Origin: Sulfuritalea sp.
GTDB taxonomy: Bacteria; Pseudomonadota; Gammaproteobacteria; Burkholderiales; Rhodocyclaceae
DNA: 34,595 nucleotides
Reading direction: 5' to 3'
Assembly (NCBI GenBank): GCA_020853215.1
Contig: JADYZH010000135.1
Span: 1 to 34,595, forward strand
A model generated the notes under the pieces. The model was not told where the DNA came from and ran no database searches. It worked only from the letters and a program-made list of their open reading frames with translations. The translations under genes were made by a program, and so were the position numbers. Shown here in pieces: positions 1,238 through 33,864 of the stretch (positions within the stretch are counted from its first letter, which is position 1; every line of letters starts with the position of its first letter).

Positions 1238-3067
<1,830 letters not shown>

Positions 3068-3070
3068 GGC

Positions 3071-4447
3071 TCAGTCCTTCTTCGGCTTGACCGGCCGCTT
3101 CCAGCCGGGAATCGATATTTGTCTGGCGCGTGATACGGTCAGCTGGTCGGGCGGCGCGTCGCGCGTCAGCGTTGTTCCCGCGCCCAGCGTGGCGCCGCGA
3201 CCGACCGTGACCGGAGCGACCAGTTGCGTGTCGGAGCCGATGAATGCGTCATCCTCGATCACGGTGCGGAACTTGTTGGCACCGTCGTAGTTGCAGGTGA
3301 TGGTACCGGCACCGACATTGACGCGGCTGCCGATCGTGGCGTCGCCGATGTAGGCGAGATGGTTGGCCTTGGAATGGTCGGCTATGGTCGAATTCTTGAC
3401 CTCGACGAAGTTGCCGACATGAACGTCGCGACCGAGTTCGGCGCCGGGGCGCAGCCGAGCATAGGGGCCGATGATGGACTGCTCGCCGACCACCGCATCC
3501 TCGATGTGGCAGAAGGGGGCAATGCGGGCGCCGCGGCCGATGCGGCAGTTCTTCAGCACGCAGTTGGCGGCAATGCTGACAGCGTCCGCAAGCTCGACTC
3601 GACCCTCGAACACGCAATTGACGTCGATTGCGACATCGCGCCCGCACAGCAGCTCGCCGCGCACGTCGATGCGCGCCGGGTCCGCCAGCGTCACGCCGGC
3701 GGTCATCAGGGCTTCGGCGACATTGCGCTGATGCACGCGCTCCAGCGCCGCCAGTTGCAGCTTGCTGTTCACGCCCTCGGTTTCCCAGGCGGCATCGGGA
3801 TGCGCGGTCGCGACCGGCATGCCTTCGCTGACTGCCATGGCGACGATGTCGGTCAGGTAGTACTCGCCTTGCGCGTTGCGGTTGCCAAGGGTCGGCAGCC
3901 AGCGCGCCAGCGCGGCGGTAGGCGCGACGAGGATGCCGGTATTGATTTCAGTGATCGCGCGTTCGGCATCATCGGCATCCTTCTCTTCGACGATGCGCAC
4001 GACCCGGCCATCCACGCGCACGATGCGTCCGTAGCCGAGAGGATTGTCGAGGTATGCGGTGAGCAGCGCCAGCTTGTCGCTGCCGGCCGCATCGATCAGG
4101 CGTCGCAAGGTCGAAGCGCGGGTCAGGGGTACGTCGCCATACAGCACCAGGGTAAAAGTCGGCGCCGGCGATACGGCAACGGCAAGCTGCGGCAGGGCTT
4201 GCATCACCGCATGGCCGGTGCCGAGCTGCGGTTCCTGCAAGGCCCAGGCGAGGTCCGGCGCATCGAGGGCGGCACGCACCTGTTCGCCGCCATGACCATG
4301 GACCACGCAGATCTTCTCCGCGCCCAGTTCCCGCGCGCTTGCGATGACATGCGCCAGCAGGGGCTTTCCCGCCAGCGGATGCAGGACCTTGGGCAGGTCC
4401 GAATGCATCCGCTTGCCCTTGCCCGCGGCGAGGATGACGACGTTCAA
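3071..4447 (-). CDS. glmU: bifunctional GlcNAc-1-phosphate uridylyltransferase / GlcN-1-phosphate acetyltransferase
   Basis: 458 aa, normal length. GlmU carries out the last two steps to UDP-GlcNAc: acetylation of glucosamine-1-phosphate, then uridylyl transfer. The N-terminal pyrophosphorylase domain (about 1-230) shows LAAGKGKRM and YGDVPL. The C-terminal left-handed beta-helix acetyltransferase domain shows hexapeptide repeats, [18 protein letters not shown] and CNYDG. It starts 7 bp after the gltD stop and is followed by glmS at 3 bp. Oddity: residues about 89-98 ([10 protein letters not shown]), just before [10 protein letters not shown], form a longer loop than I expect from the family. 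This loop is encoded by the antisense of a 27-bp repeat also found in lysA, otnK and at 28319. The fold should tolerate it because the loop precedes a core strand. Confidence 0.97.
4154..4180 (+). repeat. 27-bp dispersed repeat, copy 1 (antisense inside glmU)
   Basis: Starts AAAAGTCGGCGCC and ends GATACGGCAAC; identical over all 27 bp to the copy at 22954-22980. On the plus strand it would read KVGAGDTAT, but glmU is on the minus strand, so here it encodes VAVSPAPTF in GlmU. It contains an inverted repeat GCCG-GCGATA-CGGC. Confidence 0.85.
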
Positions 4448-4454
4448 GGCGGGC

Positions 4455-5917
4455 TCAGCGCGGCAGGGTGGTGCTGCCCATCAGGAACTGGTCGACGCTG
4501 CGCGCGCACTGACGGCCTTCGCGGATCGCCCAGACCACCAGCGACTGGCCGCGGCGCATGTCGCCGGCGGCGAACACGCCCTTGACGCTGGTCGCATAGG
4601 CTTGGGCGCTCTCGGTGTCGGCGCGGGCATTGCCGCGGTTGTCCTTCTCGATGCCAAAAGCATCGAGGACGCCGCCGACCGGGCCGACGAAGCCCATGGC
4701 GAGGAAGACGTAGTCGGCCGGGATCTCGAACTCGGTTCCGGCGACCTCGCACATCCTGCCGTCCTTCCACTCCAAGCGCACCGCCTTGACGGCCTTGAGC
4801 ACGCCATTTTCGCCGATGAACTCCTTGGTGCCGATGGCCCAGTCGCGCGCGCAGCCCTCTTCGTGCGAGGACGAGGTGCGCATCTTCAGCGGCCAGTAGG
4901 GCCAGGTCAGTGCGCCGTTCTCCTGTTCGGGCGGGCGCGGCAGCAGTTCGATCTGGGTAATGCTGGCAGCGCCGTGTCGGTTGGAGGTGCCGACGCAGTC
5001 GGAGCCGGTATCGCCGCCGCCGATGACGAGCACATGCTTGCCCTTGACGTTGATCGGATTCGGCCCGTCACCGGCGACTTCCCTGTTCTGCGGAATCACG
5101 AATTCCAGCGCGAAATGTACGCCCTTGAGATCACGACCCGGCACCGGAAGGTCGCGCGGGTATTCCGCGCCACCGGCCAGCACCACGGCATCGAAGTCCT
5201 TCTGCAACTGCCTGGCGGAGATCGTCTTCTTTGCGTCGTTGGCGATGCTCCCGGGCAGCGCGGCGCCGGTGACCATGGTGCCGGTGACGAACCTGACGCC
5301 CTCGGCCTTCATCTGCGCCAGGCGCCAGTCGATCAGGCGCTTGTCGAGCTTGAAATCCGGAATGCCGTAGCGCAAGAGGCCGCCGATGCGGTCGTTCTTC
5401 TCGAACACCGTCACCGCATGGCCGACACGCGCCAGCTGCTGTGCGGCGGCAAGCCCGGCGGGGCCGGAGCCTATGATTGCAACCTTCTTGCCGGTCTTCT
5501 TCGCCGCCGGTTGCGGCACCACCCAGCCGTTCTCGCCGGCCTTGTCGATGATGGCGCGCTCGATCGATTTGATGCCGACCGGTGTTTGCGGAATGTTCAG
5601 GGTGCAGGCCGCCTCGCAGGGCGCGGGGCAGATGCGGCTGGTGAACTCGGGGAAGTTGTTGGTCGAGTGCAAGGCGACGATCGCCTCCTGCCACCTGCCG
5701 CGATAGACCAGATCGTTCCAGTCCGGGATGAGGTTGTTGACCGGGCAGCCGTTGTTGCAGAAGGGAATGCCGCAATCCATGCAGCGCGCACCCTGGGTGC
5801 GCGCCTGCTCGTCGCTCAGGTGCGGAATGAATTCGCGGTAATGCTTGACGCGCTTCTCGGCCTTCTCGTAGCTCTCGGAGATGCGCTGGAATTCGAGGAA
5901 TCCGGTGGGCTTGCCCA

Positions 5918-5918
<1 letters not shown>
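4455..5918 (-). CDS. gltD: glutamate synthase (NADPH) small subunit
   Basis: 487 aa from the ATG at 5918 ([10 protein letters not shown]); a tandem ATG at 5921 would add one Met. An in-frame extension to 6110 is rejected because it lies inside gltB and reads as arginine-rich nonsense. The gltB TGA overlaps these ATGs, so the genes are translationally coupled, with AGAGG as ribosome binding site. GltD passes electrons from NADPH via FAD and Fe-S clusters to GltB. Seen: cysteine clusters [17 protein letters not shown] and CPAPCEAAC near the N-terminus, an FAD-binding [11 protein letters not shown], an NADPH-binding [10 protein letters not shown], and a C-terminal [16 protein letters not shown] motif. 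glmU begins 7 bp downstream, so the transcript probably continues into glmU-glmS. Confidence 0.96.
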
Positions 5919-10546
<4,628 letters not shown>

Positions 10547-10607
10547 CGTGTCTTTCCTCGGAAATGCGACCGGCAATCGGCCGAAATATCTGCAAAACGC
10601 GGCCGGC

Positions 10608-10637
10608 AAAAAAGCCGGGGTGTTGCCGCTCCCCGGC
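10608..10637 (-). terminator. intrinsic terminator / possible attenuator in the gltB leader
   Basis: On the minus strand: stem GCCGGGG / CCCCGGC (10637-10631 with 10620-10614), a 10-nt loop, then an immediate run of six T (10613-10608). This is a textbook rho-independent terminator. It lies after the candidate gltB promoter and before the gltB start. Its 3' arm can instead pair across the T-run (CCGGC-TTTTTT-GCCGG), giving a mutually exclusive antiterminator-like hairpin. It could also simply end the pil-aro-dgt transcript. Confidence 0.7.
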
Positions 10638-10671
10638 CTTGGATGTTCCGCCATGCATCGCGGACGCCCCA

Positions 10672-10700
10672 AATATACCGCCAAAAGAGGTGGATTTCAA
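10672..10700 (-). promoter_or_regulatory. sigma70-type promoter for gltBD-glmUS
   Basis: Minus strand: -35 TTGAAA (10700-10695), a 17-bp spacer and -10 TATATT (10677-10672). Each box matches the consensus at five of six positions. The predicted start is near 10664, giving a leader of about 118 nt that contains the terminator-like hairpin at 10608-10637. It lies downstream of the dgt stop (10736). Confidence 0.65.
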
Positions 10701-10735
10701 TACGCTGCAATGCAGCAATCGGGTTAGCGTGCGTC

Positions 10736-11860
10736 CTAGAACTCGCTGACGGCAAACAGACGGCGATGCTCCCGCATCGAGTAGCGGTCGGTCATGCCGG
10801 CGATGTAGTCCGCCGTTGTTCGTTCGATGGTTTCCGTGGCGGCCATGGCCTGGTACTGGGGCGGCAGCAGGCGCGGATCGGCGACGAAAGCACCGAACAG
10901 GTCATGGATCACGCGCCGTGCCTTGGCGGTCATGCGCAGCACTTCGTAATGCCGGTAGAGGTGTTCGCGCAGGAAGCCCTTGAGTGCCCGGTTCTCCTCC
11001 GTCATGGCCACCGAGAAACCTATCAGCTCCGGTGCGCGGCGGACATCCTCGAGTGTGCTCGGCGCTGCTGCCGCAATACGCCGGACCGACTCGGCGAGCA
11101 GGTCGGTGACCTGGGCGTCGATCATGCGACGGATGGTTTCATGTACCCGGCGACGGCCGGCAATGGAAGGAAATTCGGCGGAGACTTCGGCGGCATGGCG
11201 CGCGAAGAGCGACACGTCCTGCAACTGCTCCAGCGATAGCACGCCGGAACGCAACCCGTCGTCGACGTCGTGGTTGTTGTAGGCGATTTCGTCTGCCAGG
11301 TTGCAGATCTGCGCTTCCAGTGACGGCCGCTGGCCATCGATAAAGCGCCGGCCGAGGTCGCCGAGTTCCCGTGCCCGCGCCGGCGAGCAGTGTTTGAGGA
11401 TCCCTTCGCGCGTCTCGAACATCAGGTTCAGGCCGTCGAAGGCGCCATAGCGTTCCTCGAGGCGATCGACGATGCGCAGGCTTTGCAGGTTGTGCTCGAA
11501 GCCACCATGCCGCTGCATGCACTCATTGAGCGCATCCTGGCCGGCGTGGCCGAACGGAGTATGGCCGAGGTCGTGGGCCAGCGCGATAGCTTCGGCCAGG
11601 TCGTCGTTGAGCTCCAAGGCGCGCGCCACCGTTCGCGCGATCTGGGCCACCTCGATGCTGTGCGTCAGACGGGTGCGAAACAGATCGCCTTCATGGTTGA
11701 CGAACACCTGTGTCTTGTATTCCAGACGACGGAAGGCCGTGGAATGCACGATGCGATCGCGATCGCGCTGAAACTCGCTGCGTACCTTGGGCCGTGGCTC
11801 CGCCAGCATGCGCCCGCGGCTGCTGCCGTCGCTGACCGCGTAGGACGCCAGATCAGGCAT
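10736..11860 (-). CDS. dgt: deoxyguanosinetriphosphate triphosphohydrolase-like protein
   Basis: 374 aa from [11 protein letters not shown]. This start overlaps the end of aroB by 8 bp and has GAGG upstream; longer in-frame starts reach further into aroB and look non-coding. It belongs to the HD-superfamily dNTP triphosphohydrolases, which cut dNTPs to deoxynucleosides and triphosphate. Seen: H67 in [13 protein letters not shown], the H96-D97 pair in [13 protein letters not shown], and a later Asp in [16 protein letters not shown], together forming the metal site. It is the third gene after aroK and aroB, a common betaproteobacterial order. Substrate range (dGTP only or several dNTPs) cannot be read from sequence. 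Confidence 0.92.
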
Positions 11861-12947
11861 CGCAGCAGGCCTCGATGGCAGCTGCGATTTCGGCGGGCGA
11901 CGCATCGGCATGGATCACCGCCTGCCCCAGGCTCTTGAGCAGGATCAGGCGCAAACTGCCGGCGATGACCTTTTTGTCGTGCGACATCAGTTCAAGATAG
12001 CGCGCCAGGCCGAGATCGGGTCCGGTGACAGGCAGGCCGGCTCGCAGGATCAGGGCTCGCACCCGATCCACATCGGCGGCTGACAACCAGCCCAGGCGAC
12101 GGGAAAGCTCGGTGGCCATCATGGTACCAGCGGCAACCGCCTCGCCGTGCAGCCATTCACCGTAGCCCATGCCGGTCTCGATCGCATGGCCGAAGGTATG
12201 GCCAAGGTTGAGCAGCGCTCGGCCGCCCTCCTTTGCCGTTTCAAATTCGTCGGCAGCCACCACCTCGGCCTTGTTGGCGCAGGAGCGTTCGATTGCCTCC
12301 GCCAGGAGTTGCCCGTCACGCCTCACCAGGCCATCCATGTTGGCCTCCAGCCATTCGAGGAAGGGCAGGTCACGGATCAGCCCGTACTTGATGACTTCCG
12401 CCAAACCCGCCGACAACTCGCGCGCCGGCAGCGTCTTCAGCGTATCGGTATCCGCCAGCACCAGCTTCGGCTGCCAGAAGGCGCCGACCATGTTCTTGCC
12501 GCGCGGATGGTTGATGCCGGTCTTGCCGCCCACCGATGAATCGACCTGCGACAACAGGGTGGTTGGTACCTGGATGAAGGGTACGCCGCGCTGGTAGGTG
12601 GCGGCGGCAAACCCTGCGAGGTCGCCGACCACGCCGCCGCCGAGGGCGACAATCGTTGTCGCACGATCGCAGCGCGCCGCCAGCAGAGCATCGTGGATCA
12701 GGTTGAGCGACTCCCAGTTCTTGTGCGCCTCGCCATCGGGAAGAATGATCGGCGTAACGGCAGCGCCGACTTTTTCCAGGCCGCCGAGCAGACGCTCAAG
12801 GTAGAGCGGGGCCACCGTCGTATTGCTGACGAGTGCTATCCGCGGACTGCTCAGGAAAGGCTGGACAAGGTCGGCACGCTCCAGCAGGTCGCCCCCGATC
12901 AGTATCGGATAGCTGTGGGTGCCGAGCGCAAGCGTCAGGCTGCGCAT
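11853..12947 (-). CDS. aroB: 3-dehydroquinate synthase
   Basis: 364 aa, standard length. It converts DAHP to 3-dehydroquinate, the second step of the shikimate pathway, using NAD and a divalent metal. Seen: [13 protein letters not shown], the glycine-rich [22 protein letters not shown] site, [22 protein letters not shown], and metal ligands in [10 protein letters not shown] and the later HGEAVA segment. The start overlaps the end of aroK by 13 bp, consistent with coupled translation. Residues EKVGAAVT resemble the dispersed repeat peptide, but the DNA match is poor (21 of 27). Confidence 0.96.
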
Positions 12948-13483: not shown

Positions 13484-13592
13484 GCCCCGGAACACTCCAC
13501 CATTGCCCCCCACAAGCCGACTCCGCCAGAGTTTCCATACCTCGGTTCCGACTGACGGGGGCCACCCCGCGCTCCTTGCCACCCGCGACGCC

Positions 13593-13624: not shown

Positions 13625-13650
13625 GAGGAGGCCGTGAAGCAGATCCGGCG

Positions 13651-18989: not shown

Positions 18990-19018
18990 TCCTCGCGCCG
19001 CCCTCCTCCCAGCCCATC

Positions 19019-21959: not shown

Positions 21960-23233
21960 GCCTGACCACGATGGGCGGGGATGGACTGCACGTCGAGTCC
22001 GTCGCATTGGGCGACATCGCCGCGCGCTTCGGCACGCCATGCTACGTCTATTCGCGTGCCGCGCTCACCGCGACCTATGCCGCCTACCGCGACGCGCTGC
22101 AGGCCCACGGCCTGGCCGACCGATCGCTGGTCTGCTACGCGGTCAAGGCCAATTCCAACCTCGCCATCCTGAACCTTTTCGCCCGGCTCGGCGCCGGCTT
22201 CGACATCGTTTCCGGTGGCGAGCTGGCGCGCGTGCTGGCCGCTGGCGGCAGTGCGGGCAAAATCGTGTTCTCCGGCGTCGGCAAGTCGCGCGCCGAGATG
22301 CGTGCGGCGCTGGAGGCGGGCATCCACTGCTTCAACGTCGAATCCGCCAGCGAGCTGGACCAGCTCGACGAAGTCGCCGGCAGCCTCGGCCGCCGCGCAC
22401 CGGTGTCGCTGCGCGTGAATCCGGACGTCGACGCGAAAACCCATCCCTACATCTCCACCGGGCTCAAGACGGCAAAATTCGGCATCGCCTTCGGCGAAGC
22501 CTTCGATATCTACCGTCGCGCCGCGCACCTGCCGCATATCGCGGTGAGGGGCATCGACTGCCACATCGGCTCGCAACTGCTCGATCCGGCACCGGCCGCC
22601 GAGGCCGCGGACAAGGTGCTGGCGCTGGTCGATCGCCTCGCCGCCGCGGGCATCGCGCTGGAACACATCGACCTCGGCGGCGGCATGGGCATCCAGTACC
22701 GCGCCGACGAGCCGGCGCCCCCCGTCGCCGACTATCTGGCGCCGATGCTGGCGAAACTTGCCGGGCGCCGCGAAAAGCTGGTGTTCGAACCCGGCCGCTC
22801 GCTGGTCGGCAACGCCGGCCTGCTGCTGACCCGGGTACAGGTGCTGAAGCCGGGCGAGGAAAAGCACTTCGCGGTGGTCGATGCGGCGATGAACGACCTG
22901 ATGCGCCCGGCACTGTACGACGCCTGGCACGACATCGTGCCGGTCTCCGCCACAAAAGTCGGCGCCGGCGATACGGCAACTGCGATGCCTTACGAAATCG
23001 TCGGCCCGGTCTGCGAGTCGGGCGATTTCCTCGGTCATGACCGGAAACTGGCGCTGAACGAGGGCGACCTGCTCGCCATCCTCTCGGCCGGCGCCTACGG
23101 CATGGCCATGGCCTCCAACTACAACAGCCGGCCGCGTGCCGCCGAAGTCATGGTCGACGGCGATGCCACGCACCTGATCCGCCACCGCGAGGAGGTTCCG
23201 GAACTCTTCGCCCTCGAATCGGTCCTGCCCTGA
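21956..23233 (+). CDS. lysA: diaminopimelate decarboxylase
   Basis: 425 aa. PLP enzyme making lysine from meso-diaminopimelate. Seen: YAVKAN with the PLP Lys64, DCHIGSQL, LGGGMGI, EPGRSLVG, CESGDF (Cys353) and YGMAMASNYNSRPR. The start overlaps lptM by ATGA. Oddity: residues 334-342 (KVGAGDTAT) lie between ALYDAWHDIVPV and YEIVGPVCESGDF, a surface region I expect to be variable and shorter in homologs. This stretch is encoded by a 27-bp repeat that also occurs in glmU (antisense), otnK and at 28319. It does not touch the recognised catalytic motifs, so the enzyme is expected to work. Confidence 0.95.
   Translation: MSLTTMGGDGLHVESVALGDIAARFGTPCYVYSRAALTATYAAYRDALQAHGLADRSLVCYAVKANSNLAILNLFARLGAGFDIVSGGELARVLAAGGSAGKIVFSGVGKSRAEMRAALEAGIHCFNVESASELDQLDEVAGSLGRRAPVSLRVNPDVDAKTHPYISTGLKTAKFGIAFGEAFDIYRRAAHLPHIAVRGIDCHIGSQLLDPAPAAEAADKVLALVDRLAAAGIALEHIDLGGGMGIQYRADEPAPPVADYLAPMLAKLAGRREKLVFEPGRSLVGNAGLLLTRVQVLKPGEEKHFAVVDAAMNDLMRPALYDAWHDIVPVSATKVGAGDTATAMPYEIVGPVCESGDFLGHDRKLALNEGDLLAILSAGAYGMAMASNYNSRPRAAEVMVDGDATHLIRHREEVPELFALESVLP
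22954..22980 (+). repeat. 27-bp dispersed repeat, copy 2 (sense, in lysA)
   Basis: Identical to copy 1 over 27 bp, with identity stopping sharply on the 3' side. Read in the lysA frame as KVGAGDTAT. Confidence 0.85.
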
Positions 23234-24468
23234 TGCGTCATCCCCTTGTTGTCTGCCTGGCACTGATCCTCCTCGCCGGCTGCGGCCAGAAAGCCGAGGA
23301 AAAGAAGGCAGTCCCGCCGCCATCGTTGATCACCGTGACCCAGGCCGCCAAGGGCGAGTTCGAGGTCGTGCTGGAAACCCTGGGCACGCTTGAAGTTCTC
23401 GCCGATCCGAAAATCGGCGCCGAAGTCGCCGGTCGGGTGACCCAGGTTCTGGCGCGCACCGGGACGCAGGTCAAGGCCGACGACCTCATGGCGGTGATCG
23501 ATGCCGGCGATGTCGCCCTGCAGAACAAGGCCGACGAAGCCGAAGCGCGGCGCATCGAGGCACTGGCGAAGCAGCAGGAAAAGCTCGCCGAGCGGCAGCA
23601 GACCCTGATGGACAAGGGCTTCCTGTCGAAGAACGCCGGCGAGGATGTCGCCGCACAACGGGCCGCGCTCGCCGCCCAGCATGAAGCGGCACGGGCGCGC
23701 GCCGACAACAGCCGCCGTTCGCTCGGCAAGACACAGGTGCGGGCGCCGATCGACGGCATCGTCGAAGTCCAGATTGTTTCCCCCGGCGACTACGTCAAGG
23801 TAGGCGATCCGCTGTTCAACCTGGTCGCGCCGAAAAAATTGCGCGCCCACCTGCCCTTCGCCGAAAGCCTCGGCCCGCGCCTGCAGGTCGGGCAGGAAGT
23901 CAGGCTGGCCTCGCCGCTGGCGCCGGGCAAGGTATTCACCAGCCGCATCAAGGACATCCGCCCCGGCATCGTCGAGGGCAGCCGCTCGCTCGACGTGCTG
24001 GCCGACATCGACAATGACGGCAGCCTGCGCGGCGGCGGCACGGTCAATGCCGCAGTGATCGTTTCGGCCAGGACCGAAGCGCTCACCGTGCCCGAGCAGA
24101 GCATCGTGCTGCGCCCCGCCGGCAAGGTGGTGTATGTCATCGCCGACGTGGATGGCCAGAAGAAAGCGCAGCAGAAACCGGTCAGGGTCGGCGCCAAACG
24201 CGGCGGCCGCATCGAGATACTCGAAGGCCTCGCCGGCGGCGAAACCATCGCGCTCGACGGTGCGGGCTTCCTCACCAATGGCGCTGCTGTCGCCGTCAAG
24301 GAGGCGGCCGGGGCTGCCAGCAAAGTTCCCGCAGGGAAGCAGAGCGCTGGCGCTGGCGGTACGGCGACCGCCGGCGCGGCAGGCGTCAAAGACGCCGCCA
24401 AACCCGAAGCCCCCCTCACCCCCAACCCCTCTCCCGCGAGGGGAGAGGGGAGCGTCGCGAGTCGCTGA
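23233..24468 (+). CDS. RND efflux periplasmic adaptor (membrane fusion) lipoprotein
   Basis: 411 aa. Lipobox LLAGC (Cys17) followed by a HlyD/AcrA-type adaptor: a split lipoyl/barrel-sandwich (IGAEVAGRVTQVLARTGTQVKADDLMAVID and later QVRAPIDGIVEVQIVSPGDYVKVGDPLFNL), a central coiled-coil hairpin (about 95-165) and a beta-barrel domain. It joins the inner-membrane pump to an outer-membrane channel, which is not encoded here. The ATG overlaps the lysA stop (TGATG). Oddity: the last residues APLTPNPSPARGEG come from a dispersed palindromic repeat read as coding sequence, and the stop codon lies in the loop of the next hairpin. The native C-terminus may have ended earlier. Confidence 0.92.
   Translation: MRHPLVVCLALILLAGCGQKAEEKKAVPPPSLITVTQAAKGEFEVVLETLGTLEVLADPKIGAEVAGRVTQVLARTGTQVKADDLMAVIDAGDVALQNKADEAEARRIEALAKQQEKLAERQQTLMDKGFLSKNAGEDVAAQRAALAAQHEAARARADNSRRSLGKTQVRAPIDGIVEVQIVSPGDYVKVGDPLFNLVAPKKLRAHLPFAESLGPRLQVGQEVRLASPLAPGKVFTSRIKDIRPGIVEGSRSLDVLADIDNDGSLRGGGTVNAAVIVSARTEALTVPEQSIVLRPAGKVVYVIADVDGQKKAQQKPVRVGAKRGGRIEILEGLAGGETIALDGAGFLTNGAAVAVKEAAGAASKVPAGKQSAGAGGTATAGAAGVKDAAKPEAPLTPNPSPARGEGSVASR
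24412..24450 (+). repeat. REP-like palindrome at the end of the adaptor gene
   Basis: A C-rich block ends in the perfect 10-bp stem CCCCTCTCCC/GGGAGAGGGG (24426-24435 and 24441-24450). Translated, it gives the LTPNPSPARGEG signature known from dispersed intergenic repeats in many proteobacterial genomes. Here it forms the C-terminal codons of the adaptor. Confidence 0.75.
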
Positions 24469-24480
24469 CGCGACTTTTTT
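24454..24480 (+). terminator. terminator-like hairpin between RND adaptor and pump
   Basis: Stem GTCGCG/CGCGAC (24454-24459, 24469-24474), a 9-nt loop that contains the adaptor stop codon, and six T (24475-24480). The pump ATG follows at 24484, only 3 nt after the T-run, leaving little room for a ribosome binding site. Confidence 0.6.
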
Positions 24481-24483
24481 GGA

Positions 24484-27400: not shown

Positions 27401-27540
27401 GCTTGGGCGCCGGCGCCGAGACCCAGCAGCCGCTGGCCATCGCCGTCATCGGCGGCATGTTCTCGTCCACGCTGCTGACGCTGGTCGTGGTGCCGGCGGT
27501 GTATTCGCTGATCGAGCGGCGACTGGAACTCAAGACCTGA
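24484..27540 (+). CDS. RND-family efflux pump permease
   Basis: 1018 aa, AcrB/MexB-type (HAE1) inner-membrane proton-driven transporter. Starts MTLPELSVKRHVLAWM, the usual beginning for this group. Seen: 12 expected membrane segments with two large periplasmic loops, proton-relay D404-D405 in IGVVVDDAIVVLENIFRHRE, and Lys922 in LIGLVAKNSILLVDLANQRREQG. The sequence is complete. Paired with the adaptor upstream; no TolC-like gene is present, so it must use a channel encoded elsewhere. There is no good ribosome binding site (GGA just before ATG), and the terminator-like hairpin directly precedes it. It may be expressed below the adaptor or by read-through. Substrate unknown. Confidence 0.94.
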   Translation: MTLPELSVKRHVLAWMVNAVLVLFGVIAFTRIGMDRLPYIEFPVVSVTTALKGANPDIVDSSVTNLIEGAVNSVPGIEHIQSTSSPGVSVVNITFGLEKDVDVAFTEVQSKVNQVLRRLPKDVDPPVVAKVETNASPIFWMAVQGNRTQQQLNQYALNVIKKKLETIDGVGEVRLGGRRDRTIRVNLLPDRMTALGVSAQDISDAFAREHVQLAGGFVVGETTEHLVKLDLEFHTLDALGGLVVGYRGTPPSAAPIRLADIAELEDGLTDNRQLARFNGETTIGMGVVKVTNANTVAIVERIKEKLANEIEPQLPPGMKISIVSNDAVFILEIVNSLKEHLLEGTLLASLVVWFFLRSLRSTLIVALAIPVSLMGAIAVIYFFGYTLNSLTMLALLLLIGVVVDDAIVVLENIFRHREEIDPEPVAAAVNGSKEVVFAVIAATLSLVSIFAPVIFLSGIIGQFFRSFAVVVTFGVLVSLFVSLTLTPMLCSRYLKVEKQHGRIYHLFDRVLGGLDRIYITLLDRALRHRWHVVALTVAVVGSSAFFFMNVGKTFTPDEDEGRFRISLRTPLGSSIDYTDAKLREVEEVLNRYPEIRTEFALIGLGTAGQVNQGLVIVRMAPREDRTRSQQEVIGLVRRDLANIPGARAFASPFSVVGGQRGEPLQFVLAGDNIDEIGRLSRELQQKLATVPGLGRIDSDVQLDLPQLVFVPDRLRIAAANLSSSDVAQAVNMLTGGVDIAKFNDEPGDGQRYDIRVKAKPGEFTQPADLSKIFLRSRDGKMVRLDSVARFEEKLGPAVIGRFDLQYAATFYATPSIPLGDAVEAVRRSGQEMLPAGYQVRFIGQAEEFGKTMKYMVFTFALALVLLYMVLASQFNSFLQPAIVMLAQPLAVVGGVAALWATGQTLNIYSMIGLTLLIGLVAKNSILLVDLANQRREQGMGVDAALRNACPIRMRPVLMTSATVIMALAPAALGLGAGAETQQPLAIAVIGGMFSSTLLTLVVVPAVYSLIERRLELKT

Positions 27541-27615
27541 AAGTCATGGTCCCGGCGAAGACGCAGGCGTTATCCCTTGAGGGCGCCGCCGCCGGCACAC
27601 CGCGGTGGCGCGCAC

Positions 27616-27669
27616 CCTGCAGGGAACGCGCGAAGAACATGCGCCTGGAAGCTGCGTGCCTGCAGGGAA
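27616..27669. promoter_or_regulatory. paired 11-bp direct repeat with palindromic core, upstream of secreted-protein gene
   Basis: CCTGCAGGGAA occurs at 27616-27626 and 27659-27669, 43 bp apart (about four helix turns). The first copy sits in the palindrome CCCTGCAGGG. A TAATAT -10-like box follows the second copy. It could be an operator pair for the 27753 gene. Speculative. Confidence 0.3.
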
Positions 27670-27752
27670 ATGCTAATATCAGCCTTCCCCAACCAGCCCG
27701 TCAAGCATTGAATCGGCGGCGTTTTGATGGTTTCAATTTCCCGGAGAACTGC

Positions 27753-28253
27753 ATGAACAATAAATCCGTTATCGTCCGTTTCCTTATCGCCTTCCTCGCG
27801 CTGACCTTCGCGCAAGTCTCGTTTGCGCAAAGCAACGACGCGCAAAAGCAGGCGGATGCAAAGGCGCAGGCCAGGCAAAAGGCCATGAGCGGACCGCCGG
27901 ACGCTACCGCCGATTTCGAGGGCAAGCAGCTGCGCCTGATCGCCGGCGGCTCCAAGGGCAAGGGCGTCCTGCACTACAAGGGCAAGGATTACCCCTTCAC
28001 CATGAGCGGCGTGTCAATCGGCGGCGTCGGCTACACGGAAGCCCAGGGCACGGCGAATGTTTACTTCCTGAAGTCGATCGAAGATTTCCCGGGCACCTAC
28101 CAGGGCATCGGCGCCGGCGCAGCGGCCGGACCCAGCAAGGGTGCCAACACCTTCCAGAGCATGAAGGAAGTGGTCATCACCACCAAGTCGAAGGGCGAAG
28201 GCGTTGCGCTCAACCTGGGCGTAAGTTCCGTCACCATCACGCTCGACAAGTAA
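27753..28253 (+). CDS. secreted protein of unknown function, possibly EipA/DUF1134-like
   Basis: 166 aa from MNNKSVIVRFLIAFL, with GGAGA just upstream. Residues 1-25 form a signal peptide (likely cut after VSFA). A charged Gln/Ala/Lys stretch follows (about 27-48), then a beta-rich domain (about 50-166) with GKQLRLIAGGSKGKGVLHYKG, a GVSIGGVGYTEAQGTANVYFLKS segment, EDFPGTYQGIGAGAAAG and GVALNLGVSSVTITLDK. The G-x-Y patterning and the edF.GtY block recall envelope-integrity proteins of the DUF1134 kind, but I am not certain. It stands alone between the RND pump and the convergent enolase gene, with its own 212-bp upstream region. Confidence 0.75.
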   Translation: MNNKSVIVRFLIAFLALTFAQVSFAQSNDAQKQADAKAQARQKAMSGPPDATADFEGKQLRLIAGGSKGKGVLHYKGKDYPFTMSGVSIGGVGYTEAQGTANVYFLKSIEDFPGTYQGIGAGAAAGPSKGANTFQSMKEVVITTKSKGEGVALNLGVSSVTITLDK

Positions 28254-28263
28254 CAGGTTCAAT

Positions 28264-28292
28264 CGGCGCTTTCCCCTTGCGGAAAGGCGCCG
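28264..28292. terminator. hairpin after the secreted-protein gene
   Basis: CGGCGCTTTCC pairs with GGAAAGGCGCCG with one bulged base and a 6-nt loop, 10 bp after the stop codon. Only a short AT-rich stretch follows (ATAATT), so it is a weak terminator candidate, possibly bidirectional between convergent transcripts. Confidence 0.45.
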
Positions 28293-28318
28293 ATAATTCC
28301 GGCCATGCGCCGGCCGGA

Positions 28319-28345
28319 AAAAGTCGGTGCCGGCGATACGGCGAC
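28319..28345 (+). repeat. 27-bp dispersed repeat, copy 3 (between genes)
   Basis: Matches copies 1 and 2 at 25 of 27 positions. Both differences (GGC to GGT, GCA to GCG) would be synonymous in the KVGAGDTAT frame. It lies in the gap between two convergent genes. A short open frame from 28305 could include it, but nothing else supports a gene. Confidence 0.8.
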
Positions 28346-28436
28346 CCGACTGCCCACCGTACCAAATTTCCACGAAACGGCGAAGCGGATCACGCGAAGC
28401 GGCGGATCTATTCCCGCGGCAGCCGCGACAGGATTT

Positions 28437-29729
28437 TCATTTGCCCCCCCAGGGAAAACTGTCTCGCGGCGGCAGGCGTCCGCCGGCCTGGCCGAGGGCC
28501 TCCGCCAGGCGCAGGCCCTCGTTCCACTTGGCCATGCGCTCGGAGCGGGCGAAGGAGCCGACCTTGAGTTGCTTCGCGCCCCAGCCGACGGCGAGATGGA
28601 CGATGGTCACATCCTCGGTTTCACCCGAGCGCGCCGAGACGATGCTTTCCCAGCCGGCGGCGCGCGCGGCATCGAGCGCGGCGCGGGTTTCCGTGAGTGT
28701 GCCGGCCTGGTTCGGCTTGACCAGCGCGGTGTTGCAGGCGCCCTGCGCAGCCGCTGCGGCGATGCGCCCGACATTGGTGCAGATGAAATCATCGGCGACG
28801 AGCTCGACCTTGTCGCCTGCGGCGGCGGTGAATTTGCGCAAGCCTTCCGCATCGTCTTCCGCCAGTGGATCTTCGATGGCGACGACGGGATAGCGCGCCA
28901 GCCAGCGCAGCAGCATTTCCGCCAGCCCGTCGGAATCGATGCGGCGCCCGTCGCGCGCCAGGGTGTATTCGCCCTTGAGGCCGAAATCGGTTGCGGCGAT
29001 GTCGAGCGAGATCGCCACGTCCTGCCCCGGCGTATAGCCGGCGCGCTCGATCGCGCGCAACAGGAAATCCAGCGCGGCTTCGTTGCGGGCGAAGGCCGGC
29101 CACCAGCCGCCCTCGTCGGCAACGCCGGCCTGCAGCCCGGCCTCGGCCATCAGCAACCCGGCGGCGCGATACACCTCGGCGGTCCATTCCAGCGCCTGCG
29201 CGTAATCGGCCGCGCCCACCGCGATCACCATGAAATCCTGCACATCCACGCGACGACCGGCATGCGCGCCGCCGCCGAAGATCTGCACTTCGGGCAGCGG
29301 CAGGAAAAAGTCTTCCCGGCCGGCGCCGAGGTGACGCCACAGCGGCAGGCCCTGCGCCGCGGCGGCGGCATGGGCGATGGCCATCGAGGTGGCGACGATG
29401 GCATTGCCGCCCAGGCGCGCCTTGTTCGGCGTGCCGTCAAGCGCGATCAGCGCGGCGTCCAGCGCGGCCTGGTCGCAGACCTCGCGCCCCGTCAGCATTC
29501 CGGCGATCTCGCCATTCACCGCGGCCAGCGCGCCCTGCACGTCGTAACCGCCGAAGGCCGCACCGCCGTCGCGCCGGTCGACCGCCTCGGCGCTGCCGGT
29601 GGAGGCACCGGCCGGCGCCATGGCGCGACCGCTCTTGCCGTCCGCCAGCGTGATTTCGGTTTCCACCGTGGGGCGGCCGCGGGAATCCCAGACGCGTCGG
29701 CCGCGAACGGACTTGATCAGACTGCTCAT
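28437..29729 (-). CDS. divergent enolase (phosphopyruvate hydratase family)
   Basis: 430 aa from MSSLIKSVRGRRVWDSRGRPTVE; the ATG overlaps the upstream kinase stop (ATGA). Enolase-fold features kept: loop Ser43 in GASTG, His156 in GGGAHA, E206 in ADEGG, metal ligands D243, E286 and D313, Lys338 in VKPNQAGTLTET, R367-S368, and Lys389. Differences from housekeeping enolase: the SHRSGETED motif reads SARSGETED (A366 in place of the active-site His), QEF is QDF (D165), NGGxHA is FGGGAHA, and SEF-like is TDF. The main housekeeping enolase normally sits by pyrG/kdsA, so this is likely a specialised paralog. It is coupled to an APH-type kinase, suggesting kinase-then-dehydratase chemistry that yields an enol phosphate. 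It could still have ordinary enolase activity. Confidence 0.9.
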   Translation of the reverse strand: MSSLIKSVRGRRVWDSRGRPTVETEITLADGKSGRAMAPAGASTGSAEAVDRRDGGAAFGGYDVQGALAAVNGEIAGMLTGREVCDQAALDAALIALDGTPNKARLGGNAIVATSMAIAHAAAAAQGLPLWRHLGAGREDFFLPLPEVQIFGGGAHAGRRVDVQDFMVIAVGAADYAQALEWTAEVYRAAGLLMAEAGLQAGVADEGGWWPAFARNEAALDFLLRAIERAGYTPGQDVAISLDIAATDFGLKGEYTLARDGRRIDSDGLAEMLLRWLARYPVVAIEDPLAEDDAEGLRKFTAAAGDKVELVADDFICTNVGRIAAAAAQGACNTALVKPNQAGTLTETRAALDAARAAGWESIVSARSGETEDVTIVHLAVGWGAKQLKVGSFARSERMAKWNEGLRLAEALGQAGGRLPPRDSFPWGGK

Positions 29730-30748
29730 GCGTTCAGTTCCCTTTTCCAGGCCACCAGCACGTCGCCCAGGCGCGACGGCGGCGCGACGAGCAGAACCCG
29801 CGCGCAGCGCCGCACGCGGCCACGGTCCCCATCGCTGCAAATGTACTCGGCCGGCGACTTGCCGTCGACGCGGGCAAGCAACAAACCGGGCAGGAGGCTC
29901 GCGGCGCGCCGCTCGACAGCGGCGGCCGGCTCCCAGCTCACTTCGCCCAGATAAGCATGCGTCATGGCCTCGAAACACGCGTGATAGCCCGCGCGGGCCG
30001 CCGGATTCCACAGGCATTTGAGCAGCAGGTGGTTGAGGCAGAAGGCCAGGTCGAAGGCCGGATCGCCGATGCAGGCACATTCGGCGTCGAGGAACACCGG
30101 GCCGGCGGGGCCGAGCAGGATGTTCTTCGGGCTGACGTCGCCGTGGACCATCGCCAGCCGCGTGGCGCCGGTGCGCCGGCTGAGGCCGAACAGTGCCTCG
30201 CGCAGGTCCGGATGCGCGGCAGCCGTGGCTTCGAGGTAGGGTTCCAGGCGAATGGCATGGAAGATGTCGTGGCGCGGAAACTGTGCGGCGACCTGAGGTT
30301 TGTTGGCCGTGGCGGCGTGAATGCGGCCCAGGCGCCGGCCGACCTCCGCGGCATCCACCGCATCGGTCCGCCCGTCGCGCAATTCGCTCTTCCACAGGCG
30401 ATGGTCGCGCGGGTCGAGGTAGCTCATGGCGCAGCACATTTCCGCAGGGTCGTGATACAGGATTTCCGGCGCCGCGCCGGGAACGATGCCATGCGCGATG
30501 CGCATCCAGGCCACTTCGTAACGATTGCGTTCGACCGGCGCCTGCCAATCGGCGGCCACTTTCAGCTTCGCCAGCGCGCGTTTGACGCAGAAGCTTCGCG
30601 TCGGTGTCGTCACCTTCCAGATGTCCGACGAAACGCCACCGGCCAGTGCCTCGAAACCGGCTTCGGCCGGATCGCCGAGCAGTCCGCCGCGTACCAGCGC
30701 CGCGACCAGGCGCGGGTCGGGCGCGGCGCTGGCGGACGGGGTGATCAC
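29726..30748 (-). CDS. APH-fold small-molecule kinase (phosphotransferase family)
   Basis: 340 aa with a GTG start at 30748, 12 bp after the regulator stop; no clear ribosome binding site, so a slightly later start is possible. Kinase features: ATP-site Lys56 in FCVKR, the catalytic loop MVHGDVSPKNIL (H202, D204, N209), and the metal-binding Asp221 in FLDAECACIGDPAFDLAF. The family includes aminoglycoside, choline and methylthioribose kinases. The context (enolase partner, sugar-acid genes) argues for a metabolic hydroxyl acid or sugar substrate rather than an antibiotic. It overlaps the enolase gene by 4 bp. Substrate not inferable. Confidence 0.87.
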   Translation of the reverse strand: MITPSASAAPDPRLVAALVRGGLLGDPAEAGFEALAGGVSSDIWKVTTPTRSFCVKRALAKLKVAADWQAPVERNRYEVAWMRIAHGIVPGAAPEILYHDPAEMCCAMSYLDPRDHRLWKSELRDGRTDAVDAAEVGRRLGRIHAATANKPQVAAQFPRHDIFHAIRLEPYLEATAAAHPDLREALFGLSRRTGATRLAMVHGDVSPKNILLGPAGPVFLDAECACIGDPAFDLAFCLNHLLLKCLWNPAARAGYHACFEAMTHAYLGEVSWEPAAAVERRAASLLPGLLLARVDGKSPAEYICSDGDRGRVRRCARVLLVAPPSRLGDVLVAWKRELNA

Positions 30749-30760
30749 TGCGACAGACGG

Positions 30761-31534
30761 CTAGAGACGCGTCAGGCCATGGCTGGCCAGCAGCTCGACG
30801 AGCATGCGTCCGCTTTGCTCGCGGTGCGCGAAATGAAGCTCGCGCGCGCGTCGCGCGTCATGGGCTGCGACGGCGTCGACCACGGCCTCGTGATCGCGGT
30901 TGGACATCACGGGTTTGGGCCGCAGGCGCAAGGTCAGCATGCGCACACGGTGCGACTGGCCGACGTAGGTTTGCACCAGTTCGGTCAAGCGCGAATTCCC
31001 GGCCGCTTCCACCAGCAGGGTATGGAAGCGCTCGTCCGCAGTGGCCCAGGCGGCAAGGTCGTCGCGCTCCAGCGCCGCATCCATGTCGCGAATCGAGGCG
31101 CGCAGCAGCGCCACAGAGTCGCCCTGATCGGAACGCACCGCGGCCAATGCCGCGGCCGTGGACTCGAGCGCGGTAAGGACCTCATAAATCTCGCGCATGT
31201 CGACCTGCGACACCGGTTTGATCCGCATGCCATGGCGGGGACGAACCTCCACCAGGCCCTCGCCGGCCAGTCGCAACATGGCTTCACGCGTCGGCGTGCG
31301 GCTCATCTGCAGCATGGCCGCGAGTTCCTCCTCGGTGTATTGCTCGCCCGAGGGCATGCTGTTGTCGAGGATGCGCGCCCGCAGTTCGCGATAGGCCTTG
31401 TCGGCAAAGGGCTCCTTGGCGGGCCTGCGCCCGGGCCGGACTGCGACCGCAGGCTTCTTGGCGATCGTTGTCTTGGCGGGTTTGCGCGGCGGCGTGCTTG
31501 CGCGCGAAACGGGAGCTTTCATTGCATCGGGCAT
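30761..31534 (-). CDS. GntR/FadR-family transcriptional regulator
   Basis: 257 aa from the ATG at 31534 (a second ATG at 31522 is equally possible; neither has a clear ribosome binding site). Winged helix: AYRELRARILDNSMPSGEQYTEEELAAMLQMSRTPTREAMLRLAGEGLVEVRPRHGMRI (about 48-105). It is followed by an FCD ligand domain with the helix DERFHTLLVEAAGNSRL and NRDHEAVVDAVAAHDARRARELHFAH, containing likely metal-binding Asp/His. Such regulators usually sense the acid substrate of adjacent genes. Oddity: a roughly 40-residue Lys/Pro/Ala/Arg-rich N-terminal tail. A TACAAT box lies 18-23 bp upstream of the start. Confidence 0.9.
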   Translation of the reverse strand: MPDAMKAPVSRASTPPRKPAKTTIAKKPAVAVRPGRRPAKEPFADKAYRELRARILDNSMPSGEQYTEEELAAMLQMSRTPTREAMLRLAGEGLVEVRPRHGMRIKPVSQVDMREIYEVLTALESTAAALAAVRSDQGDSVALLRASIRDMDAALERDDLAAWATADERFHTLLVEAAGNSRLTELVQTYVGQSHRVRMLTLRLRPKPVMSNRDHEAVVDAVAAHDARRARELHFAHREQSGRMLVELLASHGLTRL

Positions 31535-31551
31535 GGGGACGGATAGCCGGA

Positions 31552-31557
31552 ATTGTA
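31552..31557 (-). promoter_or_regulatory. candidate -10 box for the GntR regulator
   Basis: TACAAT on the minus strand in the 37-bp gap between the ABM gene and the regulator. No convincing -35. Suggests the regulator may also be made from its own promoter. Confidence 0.3.
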
Positions 31558-31571
31558 GCGTTTGGCGCGCC

Positions 31572-31862
31572 TCAGGCACTTGCCAGTTCGTAGGCGTGGA
31601 CCGCCTTGCTCGCCACCATCGCCTTGACGGCGCCATCAAAGACCTTGAAATGCGCGGCCGCCAGGTGCGCATCGAATGCGGCACGATCGTCATACAGTTC
31701 ATAAAGGAAGACAAGCTCCGGCCGAACCGGATCGCGACAGACATCGAAGCGCCGGCAGCCCGGCTCGGTCTCGCGGGAGATGCGCGCATTCTCCAGCATC
31801 AGCGGCATGAAGGCCGCGAGATGCTCCGGGGGGATCGTGAACTCGACGGTGATCACGTACAT
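31572..31862 (-). CDS. ABM-domain protein (putative quinol monooxygenase / YgiN-LsrG type)
   Basis: 96 aa, a single antibiotic-biosynthesis-monooxygenase ferredoxin-like domain: MYVITVEFTIPPEHLAAFMPLMLENARISRETEPGC at the N-terminus, FDVCRDPVRPELVFLYELYDDRAAFDAHLAAAHF in the middle. These small dimers act as cofactor-free oxygenases or as isomerases of small sugar-like compounds (LsrG). It lies 18 bp after the aldolase gene in the four-carbon acid cluster, so a role in handling a reactive keto-acid intermediate is plausible but unproven. Confidence 0.87.
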   Translation of the reverse strand: MYVITVEFTIPPEHLAAFMPLMLENARISRETEPGCRRFDVCRDPVRPELVFLYELYDDRAAFDAHLAAAHFKVFDGAVKAMVASKAVHAYELASA

Positions 31863-31880
31863 GAATGGGCCTCAGGAGGT

Positions 31881-32507
31881 TTAGCGTTGACGCAGTTCGG
31901 CGACGTGTTCCGGGCTGAGCAGCCGTAGTTGCTGGCCGCGCAACAGCAGATAGAGTCGCGCCGTGGCTTCGAGTTCCTCGATCGCATCGGTGGCGGCGGC
32001 AAGCGAACTGCCGGCGACCACCGGTCCGTGGTTGGCCAGCAGCATCGCGTGATGCTTGCCGGCGAGCGCGCCCACCGCGTCGGCCAGCGCCATGTCGCCC
32101 GGCGGATGGTAGGGCACCAGCGGCAACCTGCCGATGCGCATGATGTAGTAGGCGGTGAGCGGCGGCAGCAGGTCCGCCGGATCGAGTTCGGCCAGCACCG
32201 AAACCGCCACCGAATGGGTCGAATGCAGATGCACCACGGCGCCGCTGCCGGGCCGCTGCCGGTACATCGCCAGATGCAGGAAGGATTCCTTGGTCGGCTT
32301 GTCGCCCGAGACGTGGCGGCCATCGGCGTCGAGCCGCGACAGGCGTGCCGGGTCGAGTTCGCCGAGCGATGCGCCGGTCGGGCTCATCAGCCAGCCGTCG
32401 TCGAGGCGGATGCTCAGGTTGCCGGTCGAGCCATGGGTCAGGCCGCGCTGGTACAGGGAGTGCGCGGTGCGGCAGAGGGTTTCGCGTGCGGCCGTTTCGG
32501 CGGTCAT
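31881..32507 (-). CDS. otnC: class II aldolase family protein, OtnC-type 3-oxo-tetronate-4-phosphate decarboxylase
   Basis: 208 aa. Zn-dependent class II aldolase/adducin fold: TGNLSIRL near 28, SPTGASLG near 42, KPTKES with the catalytic-type Glu74, zinc ligands His93 and His95 in HLHSTHSVAVS, and His160 in LANHGPVV. Directly downstream of the OtnK-type kinase gene. In the known threonate/erythronate pathways OtnC decarboxylates the 4-phosphate made by OtnK to dihydroxyacetone phosphate. Assignment to OtnC rather than FucA/AraD comes mainly from this neighbour. Confidence 0.82.
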   Translation of the reverse strand: MTAETAARETLCRTAHSLYQRGLTHGSTGNLSIRLDDGWLMSPTGASLGELDPARLSRLDADGRHVSGDKPTKESFLHLAMYRQRPGSGAVVHLHSTHSVAVSVLAELDPADLLPPLTAYYIMRIGRLPLVPYHPPGDMALADAVGALAGKHHAMLLANHGPVVAGSSLAAATDAIEELEATARLYLLLRGQQLRLLSPEHVAELRQR

Positions 32508-32521
32508 TCGACTACCCTCCT

Positions 32522-32588
32522 GTCACTGCGTGACATCCTCCCCAAGGGAGGACGAGCGCCGCCTGCGGGCGGCCGTGCGGCGGCGCTC
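32522..32588. repeat. triple palindrome between otnC and otnK
   Basis: Three consecutive perfect inverted repeats: GTCAC-TGC-GTGAC (32522-32534), TCCTCCC-CAA-GGGAGGA (32536-32552) and GAGCGCCGCC/GGCGGCGCTC (32554-32563 and 32579-32588). The last overlaps the end of otnK. The arrangement resembles REP-type dispersed repeats and may control mRNA stability between the two genes. No T-run is present. Confidence 0.7.
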
Positions 32589-33864
32589 ACCGCACCATCT
32601 CCAGGGCCCGGCTGAAGAAATCGGTACGACCGAAGTTGCCGGACTTCAAGGCCAGCAGCAAGGGTTGCGGCCCCAGTACCCGTGTCCAGGGAACGCCGGG
32701 ATCGATCTGCGGGCCGATGGCCAGCGCTTTCACGCCCAGCGCGCCGACTACCGCGCCGGAGGTCTCGCCACCCGCCACGACCAGGCGGCGCACGCCACGC
32801 GCAACCAGAGCCTGCGCAAGGTGGGCAAAGGCCTGCTCCACCAGCGTCGCCGCATGTTCCAGCCCGAGCCGTTGCTGGATCGAGGCTACCGCCGCGGGAT
32901 CGGCACTGGAATAGAACAGCACGGTCTCGCCGCGATCCAGCGTGGCGGACGCGTTTGCCAGTGCGGCCTCGGCCAGGTGCACGGGGTTGTCGGCCGTCAG
33001 GGGGTCGATGACCACGGCCGGATGGCGGCCGGCCATGTCGGCCACTTGCGCCCGCGTGGCTTCCGAGCAACTGCCGGCGAGCACGGCCGCCGCCCCGCCG
33101 ACCTGGCCGAGTGCATCGGCATCGGCGTGATCGGCCAGGAGGTTGTCATCGCGAAAATTCTGCGGCAGGCCCAATGCCAGCCCCGCACCGCCGACCAGCA
33201 GGCGCTGCCTGCGACAGGCCGTACCGATCGCATGCAAATCTTCGTCGCGCACGGCATCCACCACGGCATGACGCACCCCTTGCGCGGCCAGCGCCGCCAA
33301 AGCCTCCGCGATCGCCGTGTCGCCGGCGCCGACTTTTGACCAGGGCACCAGGCCCACCGGATATCGGCTCTGGCGACCAAGGACGCGGACCAGGTTGGCG
33401 TCGGTCATCGGCGTCAGCGGATGATTGCGCATCGGCGAATCCGAAAGCAGGACGTCGCCGACGAAAAGATGCCCCTGGAATACCGTGCGCCGGTTGGCCG
33501 GGTAGGCCGGACAAACCACGGAAATCTTCTCGCCCAAGGCATCGAGCAGGGCATCGGCAACCTGCCCGATATTGCCGGCGTCGGTGGAATCGAAAGTGGA
33601 ACAGACCTTGAAGAAAACCTGCTGCACCCCTTGCGCCTTCAGCCAGTCGAGCGCCGCCAGCGATTGCCGGATCGCGTCAGCGGCCGGTATGGTGCGCGAC
33701 TTGAGCGCCACGACCACCACATCGCATTCCGGCAAAACGGTGTCCGCCGCCGGCACGCCGATGGTCTGCACCGTGCGCATGCCGCCCCGCACCAGTATGT
33801 TGGCGAGGTCGGTGGCGCCGGTGAAGTCGTCGGCGATGGCGCCGAGCAGGATGCGATCGTTCAT
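32587..33864 (-). CDS. otnK: four-carbon acid sugar kinase, OtnK-type 3-oxo-tetronate kinase
   Basis: 425 aa, DUF1537 family. The N-terminal domain begins LLGAIADDFTGATDLANIL, the signature substrate-binding start; KVCSTFDSTDAGNIG and YPANRRTVFQGHLFV follow. The C-terminal nucleotide-binding domain has VAGSCSEATRAQV (as VLAGSCSEATRAQV), LVVAGGETSGAVVGAL and LKSGNFG. It phosphorylates 3-oxo-tetronate (oxidised threonate/erythronate) with ATP. It lies 9 bp after the TRAP permease gene and 79 bp before otnC. Residues 177-185 (KVGAGDTAI) are encoded by the fourth copy of the 27-bp repeat, at a helix start where homologs need only a spaced Gly and hydrophobics; no net length change is evident. Confidence 0.9.
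   Translation of the reverse strand: MNDRILLGAIADDFTGATDLANILVRGGMRTVQTIGVPAADTVLPECDVVVVALKSRTIPAADAIRQSLAALDWLKAQGVQQVFFKVCSTFDSTDAGNIGQVADALLDALGEKISVVCPAYPANRRTVFQGHLFVGDVLLSDSPMRNHPLTPMTDANLVRVLGRQSRYPVGLVPWSKVGAGDTAIAEALAALAAQGVRHAVVDAVRDEDLHAIGTACRRQRLLVGGAGLALGLPQNFRDDNLLADHADADALGQVGGAAAVLAGSCSEATRAQVADMAGRHPAVVIDPLTADNPVHLAEAALANASATLDRGETVLFYSSADPAAVASIQQRLGLEHAATLVEQAFAHLAQALVARGVRRLVVAGGETSGAVVGALGVKALAIGPQIDPGVPWTRVLGPQPLLLALKSGNFGRTDFFSRALEMVR
33312..33337 (-). repeat. 27-bp dispersed repeat, copy 4 (sense, in otnK; last base diverged)
   Basis: Minus-strand match to copies 1 and 2 over 26 bp with two changes, GAT to GAC and GCA to GCG, both synonymous in the KVGAGDTA frame. 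The 27th base differs (ATC in place of AAC/ACN). Confidence 0.75.

Follow-up and report, generated by a model that had tools for sequence, protein, structure and literature searches.

The stretch of DNA analysed here, called the window below (34,595 nucleotides of Sulfuritalea sp.), contains a short motif that recurs within and between its genes, among them glmS, glmU, aroB, lysA and otnK. An initial annotation had described a dispersed element in and between genes on the basis of four near-identical 27-bp copies; the description holds, and all four copies are present, with copies 1 and 2 identical across 27 bp and only the start of copy 4 one base off (33311, not 33312). Together with the additional copies, an interrupted one included, the window holds 7 copies in its 34.6 kb (Table 1). 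A search with a 23-base core, allowing up to 3 mismatches, gave 5 matches in the window versus 0 in 100 shuffles of it, so that chance is excluded for these copies.

Table 1. Copies of the motif in the window, and a direct repeat at the glmS end
Feature	Position	Strand	Context	Remarks
Copy 1	4154-4180	+	Antisense in glmU (gene 3071-4447, -)	
Copy 2	22954-22980	+	In frame in lysA	
Copy 3	28319-28345	+	Intergenic, between convergent genes 27753-28253 (+) and 28437-29729 (-)	2 mismatches to copy 1
Copy 4	33311-33337	-	In frame in otnK (3-oxo-tetronate kinase)	3 mismatches
Extra copy	2397-2419	-	In glmS	Every fixed position of the short motif intact (GAC variant)
Extra copy, diverged	12751-12774	-	In aroB	2 mismatches
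Interrupted copy	24322-24369	+	In frame in a resistance-nodulation-division (RND) adaptor gene	AAAGT, hairpin-type module (TCCCGCAGGGAAGCAGAGCG), right half
Direct repeat	1106-1144 and 1240-1278		glmS 3' end and just past it	Perfect, 39 bp, 134 bp apart

The direct repeat in the last line of the table looks as if it were a partial duplication of the glmS end.

Form, abundance and distribution of the motif

The consensus RRRAGTCGGCGCYGRCGNNACGGCGA was derived from 0.92 Mb of the host assembly (G000; 3.40 Mb in 364 contigs), window included, and from 1.2 Mb of a relative (G002) assembled as a single 3.80-Mb contig that has dnaA at its start; the motif statistics are based on these two samples. 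The motif is 21 to 27 letters long and has about 19 fixed positions. Since the G000 contigs were mostly selected for carrying the motif, its density in that sample does not represent the genome as a whole. Of the three bases that precede AGT, each is A in 74 to 88% of cases in G000, and G002 has a mix of A and G there; in many places of a further genome (G186), among the matches listed, the free positions NN are occupied by RG.

At up to 0, 1, 2 and 3 mismatches, the motif was found at 135, 196, 224 and 254 places in G002 (reversed control, 0, 0, 0 and 14) and at 120, 168, 193 and 221 places in the G000 stretches (reversed control, 0, 1, 1 and 14), and the over-represented 12-mers of both samples belong mostly to it. 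In the whole host genome, the 27-mer occurs at 84 places with up to 3 mismatches (46 forward, 38 reverse; reversed-pattern control, 0), AAAAGTCGGCGCNGGCG at 457 places with up to 1 mismatch (control, 1) and the core AAAGTCGGCGCYGGCGNNACGGC, at the same threshold, at 490 places (control, 0); the expectation of hundreds of copies per genome was thus correct. Other 9-mers, such as TAATCTGCG and TTTCGCAGA, are over-represented 5-7 fold in the 1.2 Mb of G002 and are perhaps a different dispersed repeat.

The motif is abundant in the host genus and in two sister genera and is rare or absent in the other sampled genomes. In particular, the 27-mer at up to 3 mismatches was detected in 33 of 61 genomes (the host and 60 relatives), that is, in all 31 genomes of the genus, with copy numbers from 2 (G017) to 191 (G000), and once in each of two genomes outside it. 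In a sample of 399 genomes from the order, the 23-mer at up to 1 mismatch was present in 25, with 490 copies in the host, 321 in G186, 172 in G284, 157 in G061 and 1 to 5 in each of 21 further genomes, and the reversed control occurred once in each of 3 genomes. The motif-rich genera of the family are g1, g32 and g36; one g35 genome has 2 copies, and at this threshold the 23-mer was not found in the 8 genomes of g33, g34, g37 and g38. Among named contigs, at least 114 stretches carry the motif, mostly from Sulfuritalea, Rugosibacter, Sulfurisoma, unnamed Rhodocyclaceae or Rhodocyclales and uncultured betaproteobacteria, with few from Burkholderiaceae, Rubrivivax, Zoogloea and Gammaproteobacteria among the matches listed.

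Some occurrences depart from this distribution. The 21 order genomes outside the rich genera are, apart from their 1 to 5 copies, without the 23-mer, and these thin copies are possibly transferred DNA or the trace of an older, sparser distribution. G017, a genus member that is 99% complete, has only 2 copies of the 27-mer; ComEC is present in it, and LysA gave no match at 1e-60. The motif may have been lost from this genome, or a different variant may be in use there. In viral contigs of the IMG/VR database, the short motif was seen in at least 120 stretches, one of which (L372) bears five copies about 316 bp apart, and no long form, as described below, was found there; a plasmid collection gave no match to a joined query of the short and long forms.

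Placement and conservation at the DNA level

Sites with up to 2 mismatches were assigned to genes or intergenic spaces with a purpose-written gene caller in the G002 and G000 stretches. Intergenic sites account for 76 of 224 in G002 and 78 of 193 in G000, versus 16% of random positions, which is 2.1-2.6 times above the intergenic share of bases, while 148 and 115 sites, respectively, or 60% or more, are intragenic. Of the 76 intergenic sites, 19 are in spaces between convergent genes, which make up 10.7% of the intergenic bases (p 5e-4). Both genomes together have 161 sense, 102 antisense and 154 intergenic sites. The reading KVGAGDTAT, which the initial annotation had given for the repeat, is only the commonest, with 120 of the 161 sense sites, followed by 38 in the second frame and 3 in the third; it is not the point of the repeat, given the antisense and intergenic sites and the extra conservation, described below, on synonymous positions.

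The strongest result of our analysis is that the motif is old, stays in place and is maintained as DNA. For 32 of the 168 strong G000 sites a spanning ortholog was available in the examined third of G002, where 21 sites are within 1 mismatch, 1 is within 2-3, 3 have a longer form and 7 are lost. Identity between G000 and G002 is 0.85 at the fixed positions, versus 0.66 at the free NN and 0.61 and 0.69 in the adjoining flanks. In 26 genic pairs, third codon positions are 0.83 identical in the motif versus 0.67 in the remainder of these genes (p 9e-6, with 22 of the 26 sites showing the difference). No such excess is seen at first and second codon positions (0.87 versus 0.89); when matched for codon, third-position identity is 0.83 in the motif and 0.61 in the control. 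Between genera, 6 sites could be compared, and 5 of them are occupied with all fixed positions intact, the NN differing in 4 of these 5: for Rugosibacter, all 3 comparable sites (of 6 in the loci) have an intact ortholog in G000 or G002, and for Sulfurisoma/g36 this applies to 2 of 3 (of 9). It is the conservation of fixed bases and third codon positions, together with that across genera, which indicates an old, stationary motif kept as DNA.

An explanation by chance, or by ordinary protein conservation of the encoded loop, agrees with the copy in OtnK, which aligns to its homologues without a gap. Nevertheless, no copies are expected by chance, antisense and intergenic copies exist as well, and the excess conservation is synonymous; together with the shuffles, these observations refute this explanation, whose probability we consider negligible.

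As regards the origin of individual sites, by insertion or in place, 219 genic sites were queried, and 60 had a spanning homologue in the examined loci. The homologues without the motif gave a mixed picture, with 10 gapless alignments, 15 with a small gap, 6 with a gap of at least 5 residues and 4 in which the subject was longer; an outgroup stretch contributed 5 alignments only to this comparison. The proposal that the encoded residues of GlmU and LysA fall in unusually long loops held in part: the GlmU stretch is 5 residues longer than in the two best solved homologues, and the LysA stretch is 6 residues longer than 3n2b but only 1 longer than 4xg1, while the copy in OtnK aligns gaplessly, as noted above.

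The spacing of the sites was analysed in G002, where uninterrupted copies with up to 2 mismatches are on average 5.3 kb apart. Close pairs are scarce, with 4 at less than 400 bp (16 expected) and 21 at less than 1 kb (38 expected), and none of 2000 random sets was so low. The largest motif-free gap, of 63 kb (p 0.001), has a G+C content of 0.598 versus 0.632 and a gene that reads as transposase-like, and another, of 29 kb, contains genes read as rpoBC and ribosomal proteins. Orientation has no replichore polarity (+42/-33 in the first 1.87 Mb and +35/-36 in the rest; Fisher p 0.51), and the whole counts for G002 show no strand polarity; likewise, no gradient was detected along the first 1.87 Mb (Kolmogorov-Smirnov [KS] p 0.80).

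These data bear on the possibility that the motif is the binding site of a protein for chromosome organisation, segregation or replication, needed at many chromosomal places. The sites number in the hundreds, are sharply defined and are constrained as DNA, which would suit such a protein, as would the few close pairs and the even density along G002 (40 sites per Mb up to 1.87 Mb and 37 per Mb beyond). Sites of the KOPS (FtsK-orienting polar sequences), matS and SlmA types, on the other hand, show just the polarity or gradient missing here, and the NN dialects and the absence of the motif from conserved gene clusters fit tolerance by the genes rather than a positional need, so that we regard this possibility as quite unlikely.

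Hairpin modules within the motif

In a minority of sites the motif is longer, its ends being retained and modules being present at fixed points. The A module lies between AAAAGT and CGGCGC and consists, in order, of TATG, an 8-bp stem with a 3-base loop, CGGTATCC, a small second stem and GGA; in its commoner kind, a short stretch takes the place of the 8-bp stem and loop. A-forms occur in 28 of the 61 genomes, all in the genus, at 1-22 each (reversed control, 0), and a related pattern occurs 13 times in G284 of g36. A C module, rare, is found at the same point as A (1 in the G002 stretches and 2 in those of G000), and several kinds of B modules are located near GGCG/NACGGC. The stem variants compensate one another (TA or CG at pair 1; CG, AT, GC or TA at pair 2), with a Watson-Crick share of 75-100% per stem pair in 44 distinct hairpins. 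The match lengths of 48 A-forms, namely, 32 (20 forms), 35 (10), 44 (1), 47 (15) and 50 (2), differ by multiples of three, while other lengths are present in the wider list. As single-stranded DNA, the 27-bp form contains no strong palindrome (z -1.42; 14 of 200 shuffles equally good), and the L form folds with a z of -3.88. Compared with Rfam, the window and five loci gave no family at gathering scores, and the 191 bases surrounding a full-length form gave no match at E values up to 1.

At the places of A-forms, relatives have 51 short, 15 absent, 13 degenerate and 10 long versions, and at the places of B-forms all 11 are short; these counts are rough, as many rows come from lysA and one neighbouring site, at least 4 "long" rows are self-matches and two "degenerate" rows are really full-length forms. 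The glmU ortholog in G002 has an extra hairpin module within the motif. For lysA, 30 loci were fetched and 27 orthologs of the genus could be read at the loop: 24 have the motif, in some cases degenerate, 2 (G010 and G015) have the longer form and 1 has nothing recognisable. In a midpoint-rooted LysA tree with the motif site masked, both long forms adjoin short-form sisters, in separate clades, which suggests that at lysA the short form probably came first and that two separate gains of the module are the simplest history; a long ancestor with repeated losses would be less simple. Long forms can be old as well, since at one site G002 and G013 have the full-length form in common, while G012 carries the A module there and the short form is seen in G000 and a named relative. 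A full-length version of about 105 bp with A and B modules was seen in L340 from position 1500 (G013) and in G002 near 148 kb, the G013 version being read in frame within a gene that has the short form in its G000 ortholog.

Such features recall modular, hairpin-bearing repeats of the kind of REP (repetitive extragenic palindromic), RPE (Rickettsia palindromic element) and BOX sequences, of which the 27-bp form would be the shortest and commonest, spread by mobility and kept alike by exchange between copies, without a function. This account is supported by the constant ends, between which hairpin modules are optional at two points, by compensatory changes in the stems, by A-form lengths in steps of three, by a site that is short or has the A or B form depending on the species and by the intergenic excess. 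Pneumococcal BOX elements, too, have constant ends and optional inner modules; here, different from BOX, the module-free form is the commonest and most copies are intragenic. The CGTC/GTAG-tagged palindromic repeats, such as Rickettsia RPE and neisserial dRS3, are described in the excerpted text of PMC3733652 as short and dispersed, with some copies in frame in genes, which is also true of our motif, whose longer forms bear hairpins. Different from these repeats, with their CGTC tag and stem of 8-9 bp according to the same excerpt, the common form lacks this stem, lies mostly inside genes and is under constraint across species. The likeness to RPE that had been pointed out applies to the longer, hairpin-bearing versions at the same kind of site and not to the common short form; as the main account, an RPE-like micro-element is not supported, since the common form lacks a strong palindrome and most comparable sites are occupied in another species as well.

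More generally, at least 60% of the short-form sites are in genes, most comparable sites are common to species, with fixed bases kept while the NN and flanks drift, and close pairs are too scarce for clustered repeats. Y1 transposases, moreover, are absent from G061 (157 copies) and G186 (321 copies) and present in the motif-free G254 and G103; a Y1 transposase is therefore not needed for the short form. REP elements mobilised by REP-associated tyrosine transposases (RAYT) were rejected as the main account on the grounds of the missing strong palindrome, the mostly intragenic location, a Y1 transposase that does not track the motif and the few close pairs. A purely mobile repeat would account better for the modules but less well for the conservation, and we consider it rather unlikely.

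A candidate uptake sequence

The option that fits best among those listed in the initial annotation is a DNA motif under selection for uptake or segregation. To account for the copy number, clade restriction, shared positions, DNA-level constraint, spacing and placement observed, we propose, with a probability of roughly 0.5, that the repeat is an uptake-sequence-like signal of natural transformation; it is from the constraint that we infer a function in uptake. On this view, the motif would be recognised by a DNA receptor belonging to the type IV pilus or competence machinery, and the motif-bearing DNA would be preferentially taken up and then recombined. Biased exchange of this kind would restore decayed sites and hold sites at the consensus. 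Sites would build up only where genes tolerate the motif, close copies would be redundant and foreign islands would be left bare. The modules might enter either by insertion of single-stranded hairpins or by exchange between dispersed copies. Two suppositions of this model are that what binds the motif is an uptake receptor and that the motif is maintained by transformation; we add that pilM and pilQ are located in the window.

Comparable systems are known in two families. The DNA uptake sequences (DUS) of Neisseriaceae, in the excerpted text of PMC3630211, comprise hundreds or more near-identical copies in permissive regions in and between genes, on both strands and with species dialects, and our motif resembles them in copy abundance, permissive placement in and between genes, occurrence on both strands and dialects. 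It differs in its unrelated, longer sequence and in hairpin modules that lie inside the motif and do not arise from inverted pairs, as well as in that uptake is in our case a proposal. The uptake signal sequences (USS) of Pasteurellaceae form a genome-wide motif with one orientation favoured in genes, as stated in the part of PMC2346458 considered here; the motif of Sulfuritalea is likewise genome-wide, and sense is favoured in genes (161 versus 102 antisense), but the sequence and the phylum class are different, and uptake is again conjectural.

Several observations weigh against an uptake signal. Known uptake sequences have 9-12 nucleotides in the excerpted text of PMC12616744, compared with which a motif of about 19 fixed positions is longer, and hairpin modules inside the motif are unexpected for an uptake sequence. 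As for the machinery, ComEC was found in 40 of 41 genomes, motif-free relatives included, and consequently does not discriminate, and a rough pilin-motif scan of the examined stretches gave 3 pilin-like proteins and no candidate for the receptor. As for the conservation, 7 of the 32 strong sites of G000 are lost in G002, random windows in the same alignments reach at least 17/19 in 42% of cases versus 75% of sites, and the motif is kept in only 3 of 9 pairs whose flanks are less than 75% identical. Finally, gaps of more than 20 kb are as many as expected (5 versus 5.2), and the spacings taken together are not clearly distinguishable from random (KS p 0.055).

It is possible to hypothesize, more tentatively than for the uptake signal itself, that the motif represents a third independent uptake system, in the Sulfuritalea-Rugosibacter-Sulfurisoma lineage, with an unusually long motif whose sites would be docking points for hairpin modules that enter and leave at exact positions, mostly preserving the frame. 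In the open-access literature, we found no paper on uptake sequences or such repeats in Rhodocyclaceae or Rhodocyclales, Sulfuritalea or Rugosibacter, and none on an uptake sequence in Accumulibacter. A third lineage would offer an independent test of how uptake sequences originate and are maintained, and the hypothesis, if true, would open a way for mobile repeats to turn into uptake sequences and the reverse. That hairpin modules appear at an exact point in an old, constrained motif of 21 bp is a separate puzzle, and such modules could reveal how short repeats move without a recognisable transposase.

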